DNA of 64,000 nucleotides, taken from NCBI RefSeq assembly GCF_900176375.1, contig NZ_FWYF01000001.1:1808449-1872448 (forward strand), in the 5' to 3' direction. Source of the DNA: Reichenbachiella faecimaris. Lineage in GTDB: Bacteria > Bacteroidota > Bacteroidia > Cytophagales > Cyclobacteriaceae. Position numbers and translations under genes: made by a program. Numbering within the stretch: position 1 is the stretch's first letter; every line of letters starts with the position of its first letter. The notes under the pieces are model-generated. The model had not been told where the DNA came from, searched no databases, and saw only the letters and a program-made list of their open reading frames with translations. Below are positions 9,098 through 24,790 of the stretch, in pieces.

Positions 9098-10117
9098 TTT
9101 CAAATACTCAGACTTAAAATCCTGAACCTTGGGGTAAGTCCCTACAATTACTAAAACTACTCCTGGCTCCATAATCACTTTTGAAGAAGGGTTGAATACA
9201 AACTTTCCATGTTTGTCATTGAGCCCTACCACGGTCACATCTGTTCTATTTCTAATGTCCATGGATTCAATAGTTTGTCCTTGAAAATCTGACCTTAGAT
9301 CTTCATAGCGAACTTCCTCAAGTGTAAGTCCATCCTCCTGATGGCCAGACAACTGATCCAAGTATTCAATTACAAATGGTTTAGTAATGTGCTGTGCCAT
9401 GTGTAAGCCTCCAATGGCATCAGGCATGATCACGTGCTGAGCACCTGCCTGCTTCAGCTTTTTGATGGTATTCTCCTCAGAGGCACGAGAAATAATTCTA
9501 ACCTCAGGGTTTAATTCTTTGGCCGTAAGCGTCAGAAAAACATTTTCTGCGTCACTGGGAAGGGTAGTAATCAATGCTTTGGCTTTTCCTATACCCGCTT
9601 CTTCCAATACTTCTTCTTGGGTGGGGTCTCCCAGGATAAACTTATATTTCTTTACATTCTGGATTATATCAATCAATTGTTCGTCCCGATCAACAACTAC
9701 AAATTCCACCTTTTGACTCCTCAACTCTTCGCATGCCCGGCTGCCATTTCGTCCAAATCCACAAACAATGATATGATCTTTCATTTTCTTAACTTCTTTT
9801 CCAAAAACATACTTTCGGTAGAGTCTATTCAATTCACCTTCAAAAAGGTAAGTAGAAAAAACAGACACTACATAAGCAAATATCATCAAGTTGAAGATGA
9901 TGTAAATGCTTGTAAACAGTCTCCCGTTCTCAGATAATGGATAAATTTCATTGAAACCTACTGTGGAGAAAGTGATAACTGCCATGTAAAAGGACTCTAC
10001 CCAACTGAATCCTTCTATCATCACAAAGCCCAACATACCTGTACATAATGAGGCAATCAACAGGAAGGCACTAATGAATAGCTTTCTAAAGTCTCGGTAA
10101 CGTTCTAAAAACAACAT
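9095..10117 (-). CDS. Two-TM potassium channel with RCK (TrkA-N) domain
   Basis: About 340 residues. Two transmembrane helices (about 10-32 and 70-92) flank a re-entrant pore with selectivity-filter sequence TFSTVGFNE. Then comes an RCK NAD-binding domain (IIVCGFGRNGSRACEELR, about 117-135; DRDEQLI; GDPTQEEVLEEAGI) and a C-terminal TrkA-C-like domain ending at the stop. The product should be a ligand-gated K+ channel of the MthK/Kch type. The filter reads TVGF rather than TVGYGD, a common bacterial variant. I use the ATG at 10117; a GTG at 10126 would overlap the preceding gene. Confidence 0.85.
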   Translation of the reverse strand: MLFLERYRDFRKLFISAFLLIASLCTGMLGFVMIEGFSWVESFYMAVITFSTVGFNEIYPLSENGRLFTSIYIIFNLMIFAYVVSVFSTYLFEGELNRLYRKYVFGKEVKKMKDHIIVCGFGRNGSRACEELRSQKVEFVVVDRDEQLIDIIQNVKKYKFILGDPTQEEVLEEAGIGKAKALITTLPSDAENVFLTLTAKELNPEVRIISRASEENTIKKLKQAGAQHVIMPDAIGGLHMAQHITKPFVIEYLDQLSGHQEDGLTLEEVRYEDLRSDFQGQTIESMDIRNRTDVTVVGLNDKHGKFVFNPSSKVIMEPGVVLVIVGTYPKVQDFKSEYLK

Positions 10118-21769: not shown

Positions 21770-22234
21770 TTATCCCAATTGGATAGGACGGCTCATGCTT
21801 TCATCCAGAGAAATAAATGTCTCTGTACGATCAATTCCCTCTACTTTTTGAATCTTATCGTGTAGGACTTCTCTCAGATGATTGGTGTCTCTGCAATGAA
21901 TCTTGATGAAGATATTATAGTTACCTGTGGTATAGTGGATTTTTACTATTTCAGGAATTCCTTTGAGTTCCTCTACCACTGTATCGTACAAAGAACTTTT
22001 TTGAAGATATATTCCTAAAAAGCACGTCACATCAAAACCGAGTTTCGAATAGTCCAACTGAAGAGTTGTGCCTTTCACTACTCCCAATTCTTCCATTTTT
22101 TTCATCCTCACATGTACCGTTCCACCAGAAACATATACTTTCTTGGCTATTTCAGTATAAGGCGTCTTTGCGTCCAGCATGAGATGGGAAAGGATCTTCA
22201 AATCCACATCATCAATTTCATAATTTTTTGGCAT
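21770..22234 (-). CDS. Lrp/AsnC family transcriptional regulator
   Basis: The 154-residue protein has an N-terminal HTH (DVDLKILSHLMLDAKTPYTEIAKKVYVSGGTVHVRMKKM) and a C-terminal RAM/AsnC ligand domain (CFLGIYLQ, IHYTTGNYNIFIKIHCRDTNHL). Such proteins bind DNA as oligomers and respond to amino acids. It is transcribed away from the 870-bp gene-free region carrying the tRNA-like RNAs, so its promoter lies there. Confidence 0.9.
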   Translation of the reverse strand: MPKNYEIDDVDLKILSHLMLDAKTPYTEIAKKVYVSGGTVHVRMKKMEELGVVKGTTLQLDYSKLGFDVTCFLGIYLQKSSLYDTVVEELKGIPEIVKIHYTTGNYNIFIKIHCRDTNHLREVLHDKIQKVEGIDRTETFISLDESMSRPIQLG

Positions 22235-22343
22235 GATTCAATACTGATTTTAGTAATTATTCAACAATATTAATAATATATTAAATGATATGTAAATATT
22301 TGAGCTATTTTATGTGATATTTTTAATATATCAGCCCTTTTCT

Positions 22344-22351
22344 TAATTTTA
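22344..22351 (+). promoter_or_regulatory. Possible -7 element of RNA copy 1
   Basis: TAATTTTA occupies the position homologous to the clear TACCTTTG of copy 2 (offset 408 bp). It matches the consensus except for the last base. Confidence 0.35.
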
Positions 22352-22352
22352 C

Positions 22353-22566
22353 ATTATCAAAACAAACGAAAAGACGTTCTTTTGTTTAATACTGTAGGGT
22401 GATGAAACAGGCAGCCATGCCCTCCTATCTCGGGGGTGGAGATTTTGGATAAATCGCTCCTTGCGACTAACTACTCCGTGGAGGTTCGAATCCTTCTCCT
22501 ACAGCTATCATTTTTGGGTTAATGTTGTTTAATGAAAGAGTCTGGTTTTCCAGACTTTTTTCATTT
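22353..22566 (+). ncRNA. tRNA-like small RNA unit, copy 1 (leader hairpin, class II tRNA fold, terminator)
   Basis: The unit starts at ATTATCAAAAC and has a leader stem-loop (AAAC-G-AAAAGA / TTCTTTTGTTT). The tRNA-like domain is 22393-22504 (112 nt). Acceptor TGTAGGG pairs with TCCTACA, extendable by C22392-G504. D-stem is ATG/CAT with an 11-nt D-loop containing GG. Anticodon stem CCCTC/GGGGG encloses loop CTATCTC, giving anticodon AUC at 22427-22429. The variable region is 43 nt (22437-22479), with outer stem GGAG/CTCC and inner hairpin TCGC-TCCTT-GCGA. T-arm is GGAGG-TTCGAAT-CCTTC. Position 73 is G and no CCA is encoded. Tertiary-contact bases U8, G18G19, T54T55C56 and A58 are kept. Position 37 is U, which is abnormal for a decoding tRNA. 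Expression is inferred. Confidence 0.7.
22535..22562 (+). terminator. Intrinsic terminator of RNA copy 1
   Basis: AGTCTGG-TTTT-CCAGACT followed by a T tract; identical to the terminator of copy 2. Confidence 0.85.
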
Positions 22567-22751
22567 GGCTCTTTTCACCCCATAAAAGGCGTTTTGACAA
22601 ATCTTTATCGTTAACGATGTATAATTCGCAATTTCAGCACCTTAAATCAATGCCAATTTACGATATTATCAACAATAACGTCAATAAAGTAAAAATAATA
22701 TATTTATTCATTCATTTTAATGAAATATTTTCAATATTCAGACCGAATTGC

Positions 22752-22759
22752 TACCTTTG
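22752..22759 (+). promoter_or_regulatory. -7 promoter element of RNA copy 2
   Basis: TACCTTTG is an exact TAnnTTTG match directly ahead of the conserved unit, placing the transcript start near 22765. Confidence 0.5.
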
Positions 22760-22760
22760 A

Positions 22761-22974
22761 ATTATCAAAACAAACAAAAAGACGTTCTTTTGTTTAATAC
22801 TGTAGGGTGATGAAACAGGCAGCCATGCCCTCCTCTCTCGGGGGTGGGGAACTGGGACAAATCTCAACTTGAGACTAACCTCTCCGTGAAGGTTCGAATC
22901 CTTCTCCTACAGCTATCATTTTTGGGTTAATGTTGTTTAATGAAAGAGTCTGGTTTTCCAGACTTTTTTCATTT
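22761..22974 (+). ncRNA. tRNA-like small RNA unit, copy 2
   Basis: This is the second copy, exactly 408 bp from the first, with 200 of 214 positions identical and no indels. The tRNA-like domain is 22801-22912. It folds as copy 1 but with anticodon loop CTCTCTC (anticodon CUC at 22835-22837). Of 14 differences, one is in the leader bulge, one in the first anticodon base, one in the T-stem (GGAGG to GAAGG, turning a G-U pair into A-U) and 11 in the variable arm. There the inner hairpin changes from TCGC/GCGA to TCTC/GAGA, a compensatory change of both strands. The 3' trailer and terminator are identical. Selection on RNA structure is the natural reading. Confidence 0.7.
22944..22970 (+). terminator. 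Intrinsic terminator of RNA copy 2
   Basis: AGTCTGG-TTTT-CCAGACT followed by T6; same sequence as copy 1. Confidence 0.85.
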
Positions 22975-23104
22975 ATAGCCTCTGGAGCTTTAAAAGTATC
23001 ATTCACTTTTTGATAATTCCACTCTCATTAAGCATCTTTAGAAGATTTTTATATTTTCATCAGGCAAATTGGTGAAATTGATCTTCAAGCATTAACAAAA
23101 CAAA

Positions 23105-24790
23105 ATGGCTACGCACACTTGGTTTCAACACTACCCTAAAGGAATTCCTCATACGATCAACCCAGACGAATACACATCACTTCCGCACCTCTTTGAAGTT
23201 GGTTTTGAAAAATATGGTGACAGGCCAGCCATGGAAAACATGGGCAAATGTCTTACTTATCATGAATTCAACCAGAAGGTTGATCAGTTTGCCAGCTTTT
23301 TACAAAACCACACCAATCTGAAAAAAGGAGATCGTCTGGCCATACAAATGCCTAATCTCTTGCAATATCCTATTGCCATGTTTGCTGCATTAAAGTGTGG
23401 ACTGGTAGTAGTAAATACCAACCCACTTTATACTCCAGATGAAATGAAGCACCAGTTCAATGACTCTGGAGCCAAGGCCATTGTGATCCTGGAAAATTTT
23501 GCATGCAATCTGGAAGAGATCATTTCTTACACTTCTATAGAAACAGTTATTACCACAGAAATTGGTGACTTACTGGGAGGACTTAAAAGACCCATTATCA
23601 ATTTTGTAGTAAAAAGAATTAAAAAAATGGTTCCGCCATTTTCATTGCCTATGGCAATCAACTTTAACAGTGCCCTTAAAACGGGACAATCAAGCCAATT
23701 CAACAAAGTGGATTTAAAGGGCGAGGACATTGCGTTTTTACAATATACTGGTGGAACCACGGGTGTCTCCAAGGGCGCCATGCTCACACATAGAAACTTA
23801 GTGGCCAATTTAGAACAGGTGTGTGCCTGGATGAGTATCATGCTAGAAGAAGGCAAAGAAACTGTCATTACTGCTCTGCCGCTTTATCATGTATTTGCAT
23901 TGACTTGCAACTGCTTGGTGATGTTTAAACTTGGCGCAAAAAACATACTGATCACCAACCCTAGAGATATGCCTGGTTTTGTAAAAGAATTGGGCAAGCA
24001 CCAATTCTCTGTAATCACTGGCGTAAACACGTTATTCAATGGATTACTTAATCAGCCAAAATTTGCCGAGTTAGATTTTTCTAAACTTAAGGTTGCTTTT
24101 GGTGGTGGCATGGCTGTTCAGAAAATAGTCGCAGAAAAATGGCTAAAAACAACTGGCGCGTCACTAGCAGAAGGGTATGGTCTGACTGAAACGTCTCCCG
24201 TCCTTACTATCAATCCACTCGATGGCACTGATAGAGTGGGAACCATAGGCCTTCCTATCCCAAGTACTGAAATCAAAATGCTTGATGATGATGGCAACGA
24301 AGTGGCGCAAGGTGAGCCTGGTGAGCTTTGCGCCAAAGGGCCTCAGGTAATGAAGGGATATTGGGAACGCCCAGCTGATACAGATCAGGTGATGAACGGA
24401 GAATGGTTCAAAACAGGTGATGTCGCCACTATTGACAAGGATGGATTTATCAGAATAGTAGATAGAAAGAAGGAAATGATCTTGGTATCAGGGTTCAATG
24501 TTTATCCCAATGAGGTGGAAGACGCAATTGCAAGACATGAAAAAGTACTAGAAGTGGGAGCCATAGGCGTTCCAGATAAAAAATCCACTGAAGCAGTAAA
24601 GGTTTTCATTGTCAAAAAAGATCAATCATTGACAGTAGAAGAAATAAAGGAACACGCTCATGAAATTCTTACTGGATACAAATGTCCGAAACATGTAGCA
24701 TTCACTTCCGAATTACCTAAATCCAATGTTGGTAAAATCCTAAGGAGAGTACTAAAAGAAGAAGACGCCAAAGTGAATTCCTATGATTAA
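23105..24790 (+). CDS. fadD: Long-chain fatty-acid-CoA ligase
   Basis: The 561-residue adenylate-forming enzyme activates fatty acids with ATP and CoA. The AMP-binding P-loop is YTGGTTGVSKGAMLTH (about 213-228), with the adenylation motif GYGLTETSPV (about 358-367) and hinge GDVATIDKDGFIRIVDRKKEMILVSGFNVYPNEVE, ending in the catalytic-lysine region SNVGKILRR. Length and motifs fit FadD. It starts 130 bp after the second tRNA-like RNA. A relation to those RNAs is not evident because the RNA unit ends in its own terminator. Confidence 0.9.
   Translation: MATHTWFQHYPKGIPHTINPDEYTSLPHLFEVGFEKYGDRPAMENMGKCLTYHEFNQKVDQFASFLQNHTNLKKGDRLAIQMPNLLQYPIAMFAALKCGLVVVNTNPLYTPDEMKHQFNDSGAKAIVILENFACNLEEIISYTSIETVITTEIGDLLGGLKRPIINFVVKRIKKMVPPFSLPMAINFNSALKTGQSSQFNKVDLKGEDIAFLQYTGGTTGVSKGAMLTHRNLVANLEQVCAWMSIMLEEGKETVITALPLYHVFALTCNCLVMFKLGAKNILITNPRDMPGFVKELGKHQFSVITGVNTLFNGLLNQPKFAELDFSKLKVAFGGGMAVQKIVAEKWLKTTGASLAEGYGLTETSPVLTINPLDGTDRVGTIGLPIPSTEIKMLDDDGNEVAQGEPGELCAKGPQVMKGYWERPADTDQVMNGEWFKTGDVATIDKDGFIRIVDRKKEMILVSGFNVYPNEVEDAIARHEKVLEVGAIGVPDKKSTEAVKVFIVKKDQSLTVEEIKEHAHEILTGYKCPKHVAFTSELPKSNVGKILRRVLKEEDAKVNSYD

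Follow-up and report, generated by a model that had tools for sequence, protein, structure and literature searches.

In tRNA-dependent asparagine synthesis, as presented in PMC4206432 and PMC9976931, a non-discriminating AspRS acts together with GatCAB and a tRNA-Asn that carries a U1-A72 pair. According to PMC9976931, amidation of Asp-tRNA-Asn requires U1-A72, and G1-C72 plus U20a block it in tRNA-Asp. The same review names G73, G34, U35, C36 and C38 as bacterial Asp determinants and describes G1-C72 of bacterial tRNA-Asp as crucial. Bacterial Ser determinants are listed there as G73, C72, G2-C71, R4-Y69, C11-G24 and a large variable region, and in E. coli tRNA-Ser G73 is a LeuRS antideterminant (PMC9976931).

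Allo-tRNAs are encoded by tRNA-like genes whose anticodons are unusual and include GUC, as in the element described here. PMC7609411 describes their acceptor branches as 8/4 or 9/3 and their identity as Ser or Ala, and places them in Clostridia, Proteobacteria and Acidobacteria; the element, unlike these, has a 7/5 branch, whose seven acceptor and five T-stem pairs are formed in 99.6-100% of alignment cells. In the available excerpts of PMC3399842, tRNA-Other of Bacillus cereus is a tRNA-like, non-translational and poorly chargeable pseudo-tRNA, and these are its points of likeness to the element. It differs in its Trp anticodon, its poor charging with Lys in vitro and its link to cell wall, stress and resistance, and those excerpts contain no link to GatCAB or AsnC. 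Our literature search, with subscription journals largely outside its scope, found no description of the RNA itself.

In E. coli, asnC and asnA are divergent neighbours. Most of the RNA loci resemble this pair in having an AsnC-type regulator gene divergent from its partner at similar spacing, but the spot held in E. coli by an asparagine synthetase gene is occupied in Bacteroidota by the RNA gene.

Two tRNA-like units in Reichenbachiella faecimaris

The window, that is the whole analysed stretch of 64,000 nucleotides, contains two units of 214 nt on the plus strand (22353-22566 and 22761-22974), exactly 408 bp apart, as a sequence-only reading of this DNA had described. They are identical at 200 of 214 positions. 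Unit 1 is composed of a leader hairpin, a tRNA-like domain, a tail and a terminator; the leader hairpin and an identical intrinsic terminator are present in both units. The leader hairpin of unit 1 (22360-22387, plus strand) is a predicted fold, while that of unit 2 (22768-22795, plus strand) was placed by register with unit 1, and this stretch is predicted to pair somewhat differently when unit 2 is folded alone. The terminators, whose outer limits are approximate, lie at 22534-22563 (stem 22539-22545/22550-22556) and 22942-22971, both on the plus strand; a terminator scan lists the unit 1 stem too, but on the minus strand.

Both tRNA-like domains (22393-22504 and 22801-22912, plus strand; 22393-22505 and 22801-22913 with the encoded C74) have the full tRNA geometry claimed for them, with a 7-bp acceptor stem and 7/5 acceptor branch, U8, a 3-bp D-stem, G18G19, a 5-bp anticodon stem, a 7-nt anticodon loop, a 43-nt variable region, and a 5-bp T-stem with the loop TTCGAAT. 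Their first pair is U-A and both end in G73. The anticodon of copy 1 is AUC (loop CUAUCUC, 22425-22431, A34 at 22427) and that of copy 2 is CUC (loop CUCUCUC), with U37 in each. The variable region of copy 1 (22437-22479) has an outer stem (22438-22441/22474-22477) and a hairpin (22454-22457/22463-22466), and the AUAAA and CUAAC flanks characteristic of the family are present in it. Between the copies a G-C pair of the variable arm (22456/22464) becomes U-A and a T-stem G-U pair (22481) becomes A-U; in these details, too, the earlier reading was accurate. Six canonical host tRNA genes that were examined (L083-L088) also have an encoded N73-C74 and no full CCA.

The flanks of the units had been called unrelated, which proved incorrect for the upstream side: the 92 nt 5' of the units match at 54 positions, compared with a mean of 31 and a maximum of 44 in shuffles, which points to a promoter region common to both units. 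Directly 5' of unit 2 lies TACCTTTG (22752-22759, plus strand), an element of the form TAnnTTTG, which we take to be the Bacteroidota-type -7 promoter consensus; copy 1 has an imperfect counterpart, TAATTTTA (22344-22351). Across the family, 78 of 130 copies have a TAnnTTTG in the 150 nt that precede them (mean of composition shuffles, 13.5). An asnC-type regulator gene (21770-22234, minus strand) is divergent from the unit pair, with 159 nt between its start codon and U1 of copy 1, and a gene for a FadD-type acyl-CoA ligase (23105-24790, plus strand) forms the other flank.

Distribution and structural conservation of the family

A DNA search of the order gave matches at E <=0.001 in 45 of 59 genomes, the host's own included, a few of them short tail matches. 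From 36 aligned domains a covariance model, R1, was built, which scores the two window copies at 127.8 and 122.4 bits. R1 matches of at least 75 bits were found in 68 of 395 Bacteroidia genomes, in a scan run with stricter filters, at the cost of weak matches. Hits of canonical tRNA length reach at most 61.5 bits, and a compact form in genome G048, which has lost the variable arm but kept U1-A72, G73 and the loop CUAUCUC, scores 66 bits. A pattern scan of named genomes yielded at least 120 stretches, and the element was present in 80 of 80 loci among the matches listed, a few of which share genus or species. The carriers among those matches include Algoriphagus, Cyclobacterium, Hymenobacter, Pontibacter, Dyadobacter, Spirosoma, Fulvivirga, Ekhidna, Marinoscillum, Chitinophaga, Niabella and Terrimonas, as well as Saprospiraceae and Flavobacteriales MAGs. 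Far from being a local oddity, the pair belongs to this large family, whose units are single or in tandem. In genome G014 (L032:5800-11300), many decayed 3' parts of the element were seen as an array at about 300 bp spacing among and behind three intact copies.

Folding of single sequences is only moderately better than that of shuffles (z -2.67 and -1.97 for the two units); the comparative part of the evidence for an RNA structure, as judged from the alignments, is strong. In these, 97-98% of cells pair, and pairs changed on both sides number 9 of 28 in alignment A1, 17 of 28 in A4 and 20 of 28 in A3. None of 500 shuffles reached the observed changed-cell count or covariation score in A1, A3 or A4, and slid controls were far lower; the observed number of covarying pairs was reached by 8 of 500 shuffles in A1, and by none of 500 in A3 or A4. 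The alignment of A3 and A4 was guided by the model, a bias in the model's favour; A1 was aligned independently of it, although the first A1 sequence was the source of the structure. Of the acceptor pairs, 1-72 and 2-71 are invariant but for one A3 row, and pairs 3-7 covary. The covariance-model search proposed in the sequence-only reading thus found homologues with structure-preserving changes, and the suggested selection on a structured RNA is borne out. We regard the element as a structured, selected, stand-alone tRNA-like RNA that is probably non-decoding.

The variable region is 39-131 nt long and composed of an outer stem and a conserved AUAAA-hairpin-CUAAC arrangement, with an extra hairpin in some members; CUAAC was found in 159 and AUAAA-like sequences in 164 of 171 elements. 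Variable-arm hairpins carry GUUGACC (35/171) or the self-complementary GAGCUC (23/171), and kissing loops are possible. Palindromic apical loops were considered as a general dimerisation signal and rejected: GAGCUC, UGAUCA (5/171) and GUUGACC are confined to such minorities and are absent from the window copies. Anti-Shine-Dalgarno mimicry by CCUCCU was also dismissed, as inspection by eye places part of this stretch in a stem and shows its changes to be compensated.

Common tRNA tools do not recognize the long form in the loci tested. ARAGORN made no tRNA call anywhere in the window and none in 39 long-form loci; it calls only the compact G048 form, as tRNA-Asp. Rfam at gathering scores gave nothing in the window, including no family that would explain both units, and no match in 16 family loci; the Rfam tRNA family (RF00005) was absent from 22200-23105 even at E <=10. 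In the host genome, the best R1 match after the two copies is tRNA-Leu(GAG) at 57 bits, followed by tRNA-Leu(UAG), tRNA-Tyr and tRNA-Ser, which indicates that the body of the element is most like tRNA-Leu. The likeness to this closest canonical match resides in the 3-bp D-stem, the D-loop and the class II layout; the element is unlike tRNA-Leu in its G73, Asp-type loop, branched variable arm and U1-A72.

Identity elements and phage copies

Identity positions were examined in 84 distinct elements (A1, A2 and A4), for whose choice no exact loop was required, although both BLAST and the model are biased towards similar loops. The anticodon loop is CUGUCUC in 42 of them and a close variant in most others. 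U1-A72, G2-C71 and G73 are each present in 84/84, and U35, C36 and C38 in 83/84 each, the remaining element (L074) being misparsed and reading UUGUCUC by eye. U37 was found in 78/84 and G34 in 76/84, as well as by eye in L074; G34 is absent in 7/84 and, in a second sample, in 17/132. A GUC anticodon occurs in 76/84, so the AUC and CUC of the window, which the sequence-only reading had reported, are minority forms. A73 was absent and no Leu anticodon was found among the loops. Charging by LeuRS was rejected on account of G73, the antideterminant named in PMC9976931, and of the Asp-type loop; the earlier proposal of a stand-alone, probably non-decoding RNA, possibly an aminoacyl carrier, is supported, with its LeuRS part weakened by G73. 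Glu identity for the CUC copy was likewise rejected: bacterial GluRS, in the same source (PMC9976931), uses G1-C72 and U2-A71, and the element has neither.

The full tRNA-Asp set of G73, G34, U35, C36 and C38 is present in 76/84 elements; the window copies, with A34 and C34, do not have it. Other tRNA-Asp features are missing from the family: G1-C72 is replaced by U1-A72 throughout, G10 occurs in only 7/84, and position 37, a purine in tRNA-Asp, is one in only 3/84. The host tRNA-Asp has G1-C72 and the loop CTGTCAC, and the host tRNA-Asn has U1-A72. Of the rule for GatCAB substrates (U1-A72 and no U20a), the first part holds for 84/84 elements and the second for 171/171, all of the latter with A20a. 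As the window copies are without G34, either AspRS of this genus accepts A34 and C34 or the RNA has drifted in its role.

The lack of G34 in the window copies is also what a decoy or sponge would allow, that is an RNA which binds AspRS, GatCAB or tRNA-processing enzymes through its identity elements and stays uncharged. We give this reading little credence: the encoded G73-C74, as in the host canonical tRNAs examined, suggests a usable 3' end, and a substrate would be expected to keep pairs 1-72 and 2-71 constant, as this RNA does.

A similarly slight probability is assigned to a serine carrier, which SerRS would charge by way of its acceptor stem, G73 and long variable arm and which would serve outside translation. 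SerRS does not read the anticodon, and the element has G73, G2-C71, R4-Y69 and a large variable region, each a bacterial Ser determinant in PMC9976931; to this extent SerRS, already a candidate in the sequence-only reading, remains one. The determinants C72 and C11-G24 are absent, being replaced by A72 and mostly by U11-A24 (89 of 96 rows of A3), and serylation would leave the fixed UC-C anticodon loop, GatB, asnC and the armless compact form unexplained.

The element is also carried by phages. One strict viral pattern, together with searches of phage and plasmid DNA with window copy 1, gave nothing for a mobile-element reading, and the phage copies surfaced only with a broader viral pattern. 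This matched 117 stretches, and the element was present, at 66 bits or more, in 80 of 80 examined. On three viral contigs PHROGs identified phage-type genes, including those for holin, endolysin and DNA polymerase. In the viral stretches examined, AsnC, GatB, AspRS and AsnB had no match. Among 60 distinct viral copies, G2-C71, G73 and G34 are present in 60 each and U1-A72 in 57, and the acceptor stems are varied.

Several of 27 viral loci scanned for tRNAs have 5-15 tRNA genes, and in the viral contigs L304-L383 the element often lies near or within tRNA clusters (e.g. L322:3168-3319, L330:7301-7452 and L315:2952-3110). Extra hairpin-like inserts were seen in the D-loop of the viral copies L312, L341, L353 and L359. 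A second phage set has tRNA-Leu-like ends (AGTCAGG...GGTTCGAATCCTGTCCTGACTAC), heterogeneous middles and no clear anticodon arm (L322:5129-8251, L330:4332-5974, L328:4587-4706 and 9979-10112, L333:9734-9831).

The phage tRNA clusters could mean a decoding role, in which a tRNA of unusual shape brings Asp (or Asn) to Asp codons, and both the complete tRNA geometry and the prevalence of GUC agree with this. We consider it improbable, since the host genome already has a canonical tRNA-Asp, a purine at position 37 occurs in only 3/84 elements and U33, frequently lost, in only 65/84, and the variable region reaches 131 nt. Moreover, if such a tRNA were amidated to Asn, Asp codons would be mistranslated.

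The asnC neighbour and a proposed asparagine route

By sequence, the regulator gene beside the units is closest to AsnC, not Lrp: its product scores 171.9 bits with the AsnC model, below the AsnC cut-off of 227, versus 54.8 bits with Lrp, and among solved structures E. coli AsnC (PDB 2cg4) is its best match. Upstream sequence of at least 700 nt was available for 94 of 100 loci. In 62 of the 94, asnC is divergent from the RNA at a distance of 124-253 nt from U1, and 32 have no adjoining asnC. At asnA or asnB loci of Bacteroidia, an AsnC neighbour was found in 0 of 19.

GatB is encoded in 306 of the 395 Bacteroidia genomes, comprising 68/68 carriers of the RNA and 238/327 others. E. coli-type AsnB (E <=1e-150, with at most three candidates scored per genome) was found in 44 genomes, 0/68 carriers versus 44/327 others, and AsnA in 22, three of which are carriers (G365, G244 and G397); either synthetase is thus present in 3/68 carriers versus 52/327 others. 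Fisher tests gave p 4e-9 for GatB, 1e-4 for AsnB, 0.01 for either synthetase and 1 for AsnA alone, raw values that overstate the association because the genomes are related. Among the genomes listed, swaps occur within families. In f60, the RNA and GatB are present, and AsnA and E. coli-type AsnB absent, in 11 genomes; G098, G311 and G202, from which RNA and GatB are both missing, all carry AsnB, two of them AsnA as well. Seven f22 genomes have RNA and GatB, and G175, without both, has AsnA only. In f35, RNA and GatB are present in G245; G116 and G185 encode AsnB, and their GatB matches are only weak. Six f55 genomes have RNA and GatB; G133 and G309 are without RNA, GatB, AsnA and E. coli-type AsnB.

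Tests for a longer AsnB-like protein covered 44 carriers, namely 39 of the 68 together with G001, G002, G008, G014 and G035, known from the DNA search. In 38 of the 44 such a protein scores above the TIGR01536 cut-off, and it may make asparagine. The remaining six carriers (G046, G059, G355, G378, G418 and G216) are also without AsnA and E. coli-type AsnB. GlnRS is above the cut-off in 41/68 carriers, where GatCAB should therefore not be needed for Gln; in the other 27 it may be kept for that purpose. One genome, G442, has GatB and GlnRS without the RNA, AsnA or E. coli-type AsnB.

The host genome encodes one AspRS above the family cut-off, GlnRS, GatB and an ORF that, on our reading, is AsnRS-like. 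Discrimination by AspRS follows the H31/G83 rule. At the position of the P. aeruginosa tRNA(Asp/Asn) AspRS His, His was found by eye in 0 of 30 AspRS, that of the host included, and the residue looks alike in carriers and non-carriers; a non-discriminating AspRS was accordingly rejected as the asparagine route.

We hold it somewhat probable that the element is a tRNA-Leu-like RNA of switched identity, probably non-decoding, which serves as a substrate of AspRS and GatCAB and supplies asparagine under AsnC control. The biochemistry, comprising charging, amidation, release and regulation, we infer as follows. When asparagine is short, AsnC would switch the RNA gene on, and the transcript would be trimmed like a tRNA and receive CCA. 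AspRS would load it with aspartate, which GatCAB would amidate to asparagine on the RNA. Decoding by the charged RNA would be prevented by the pyrimidine at position 37, by the U33 that is often missing and by the size of the variable arm, so that asparagine would be released rather than used on the ribosome; freed by hydrolysis or a further enzyme, it would feed AsnRS. The RNA would thus be a cofactor used over and over, through which a cell whose AspRS is discriminating could make asparagine in a tRNA-dependent way. GatCAB, the U1-A72 rule and the conversion of Asp to Asn on RNA would be common to this route and the known one (PMC4206432 and PMC9976931). It would differ in using a separate RNA with an Asp anticodon loop, for which a discriminating AspRS would suffice, and in a product that is probably not for decoding.

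The main rival, which we think unlikely, is a regulatory sensor: what matters would be whether the RNA is charged with Asp or Asn, not how much asparagine it yields, and AspRS, GatCAB, AsnC or some other partner would sense this, perhaps via the variable-arm motif. It would account for the asnC neighbour, for the conserved AUAAA...CUAAC motif, which identity alone does not require, and for the RNA's own promoter elements and, in the window, its own terminators. The swap of RNA and GatB against AsnA or AsnB fits biosynthesis better, the compact G048 form is without the motif, and the viral stretches examined carry the RNA without asnC.

For the asparagine route speak the Asp and GatCAB determinants, the divergent asnC, GatB in all carriers, the absence of E. 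coli-type AsnB from them, the within-family swaps and the compact form. Against it stand A34 and C34 in the window, G34 being a strong Asp determinant, U1-A72 in place of G1-C72, the rarity of G10 and the partial Ser set, as well as the 238 genomes with GatB and no RNA (G442 among them), the 27 carriers in which GatCAB may serve Gln, G133 and G309 of f55, the 32 of 94 loci without asnC, the 19 asnA or asnB loci without an AsnC neighbour, the phage tRNA clusters and an uninformative AspRS residue. The longer AsnB-like proteins (38/44) and the AsnA of three carriers argue against a simple replacement of the synthetase.

The broadest form of the proposal, to which we would give an even chance, is that a non-decoding tRNA-derived RNA is an AsnC-regulated carrier that, together with AspRS and GatCAB, does the work of asparagine synthetase in much of Bacteroidota, and that phages carry it as a metabolic gene. 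The family is in any case widespread. If the proposal is true, the regulated gene of an amino-acid pathway would be an RNA and not an enzyme. It would reveal a way for bacteria whose AspRS is discriminating to make asparagine on RNA, and would explain why many Bacteroidota retain GatCAB despite having GlnRS. The element would then clearly exemplify a tRNA that was turned into a metabolic cofactor and is controlled by a transcription factor of its own.
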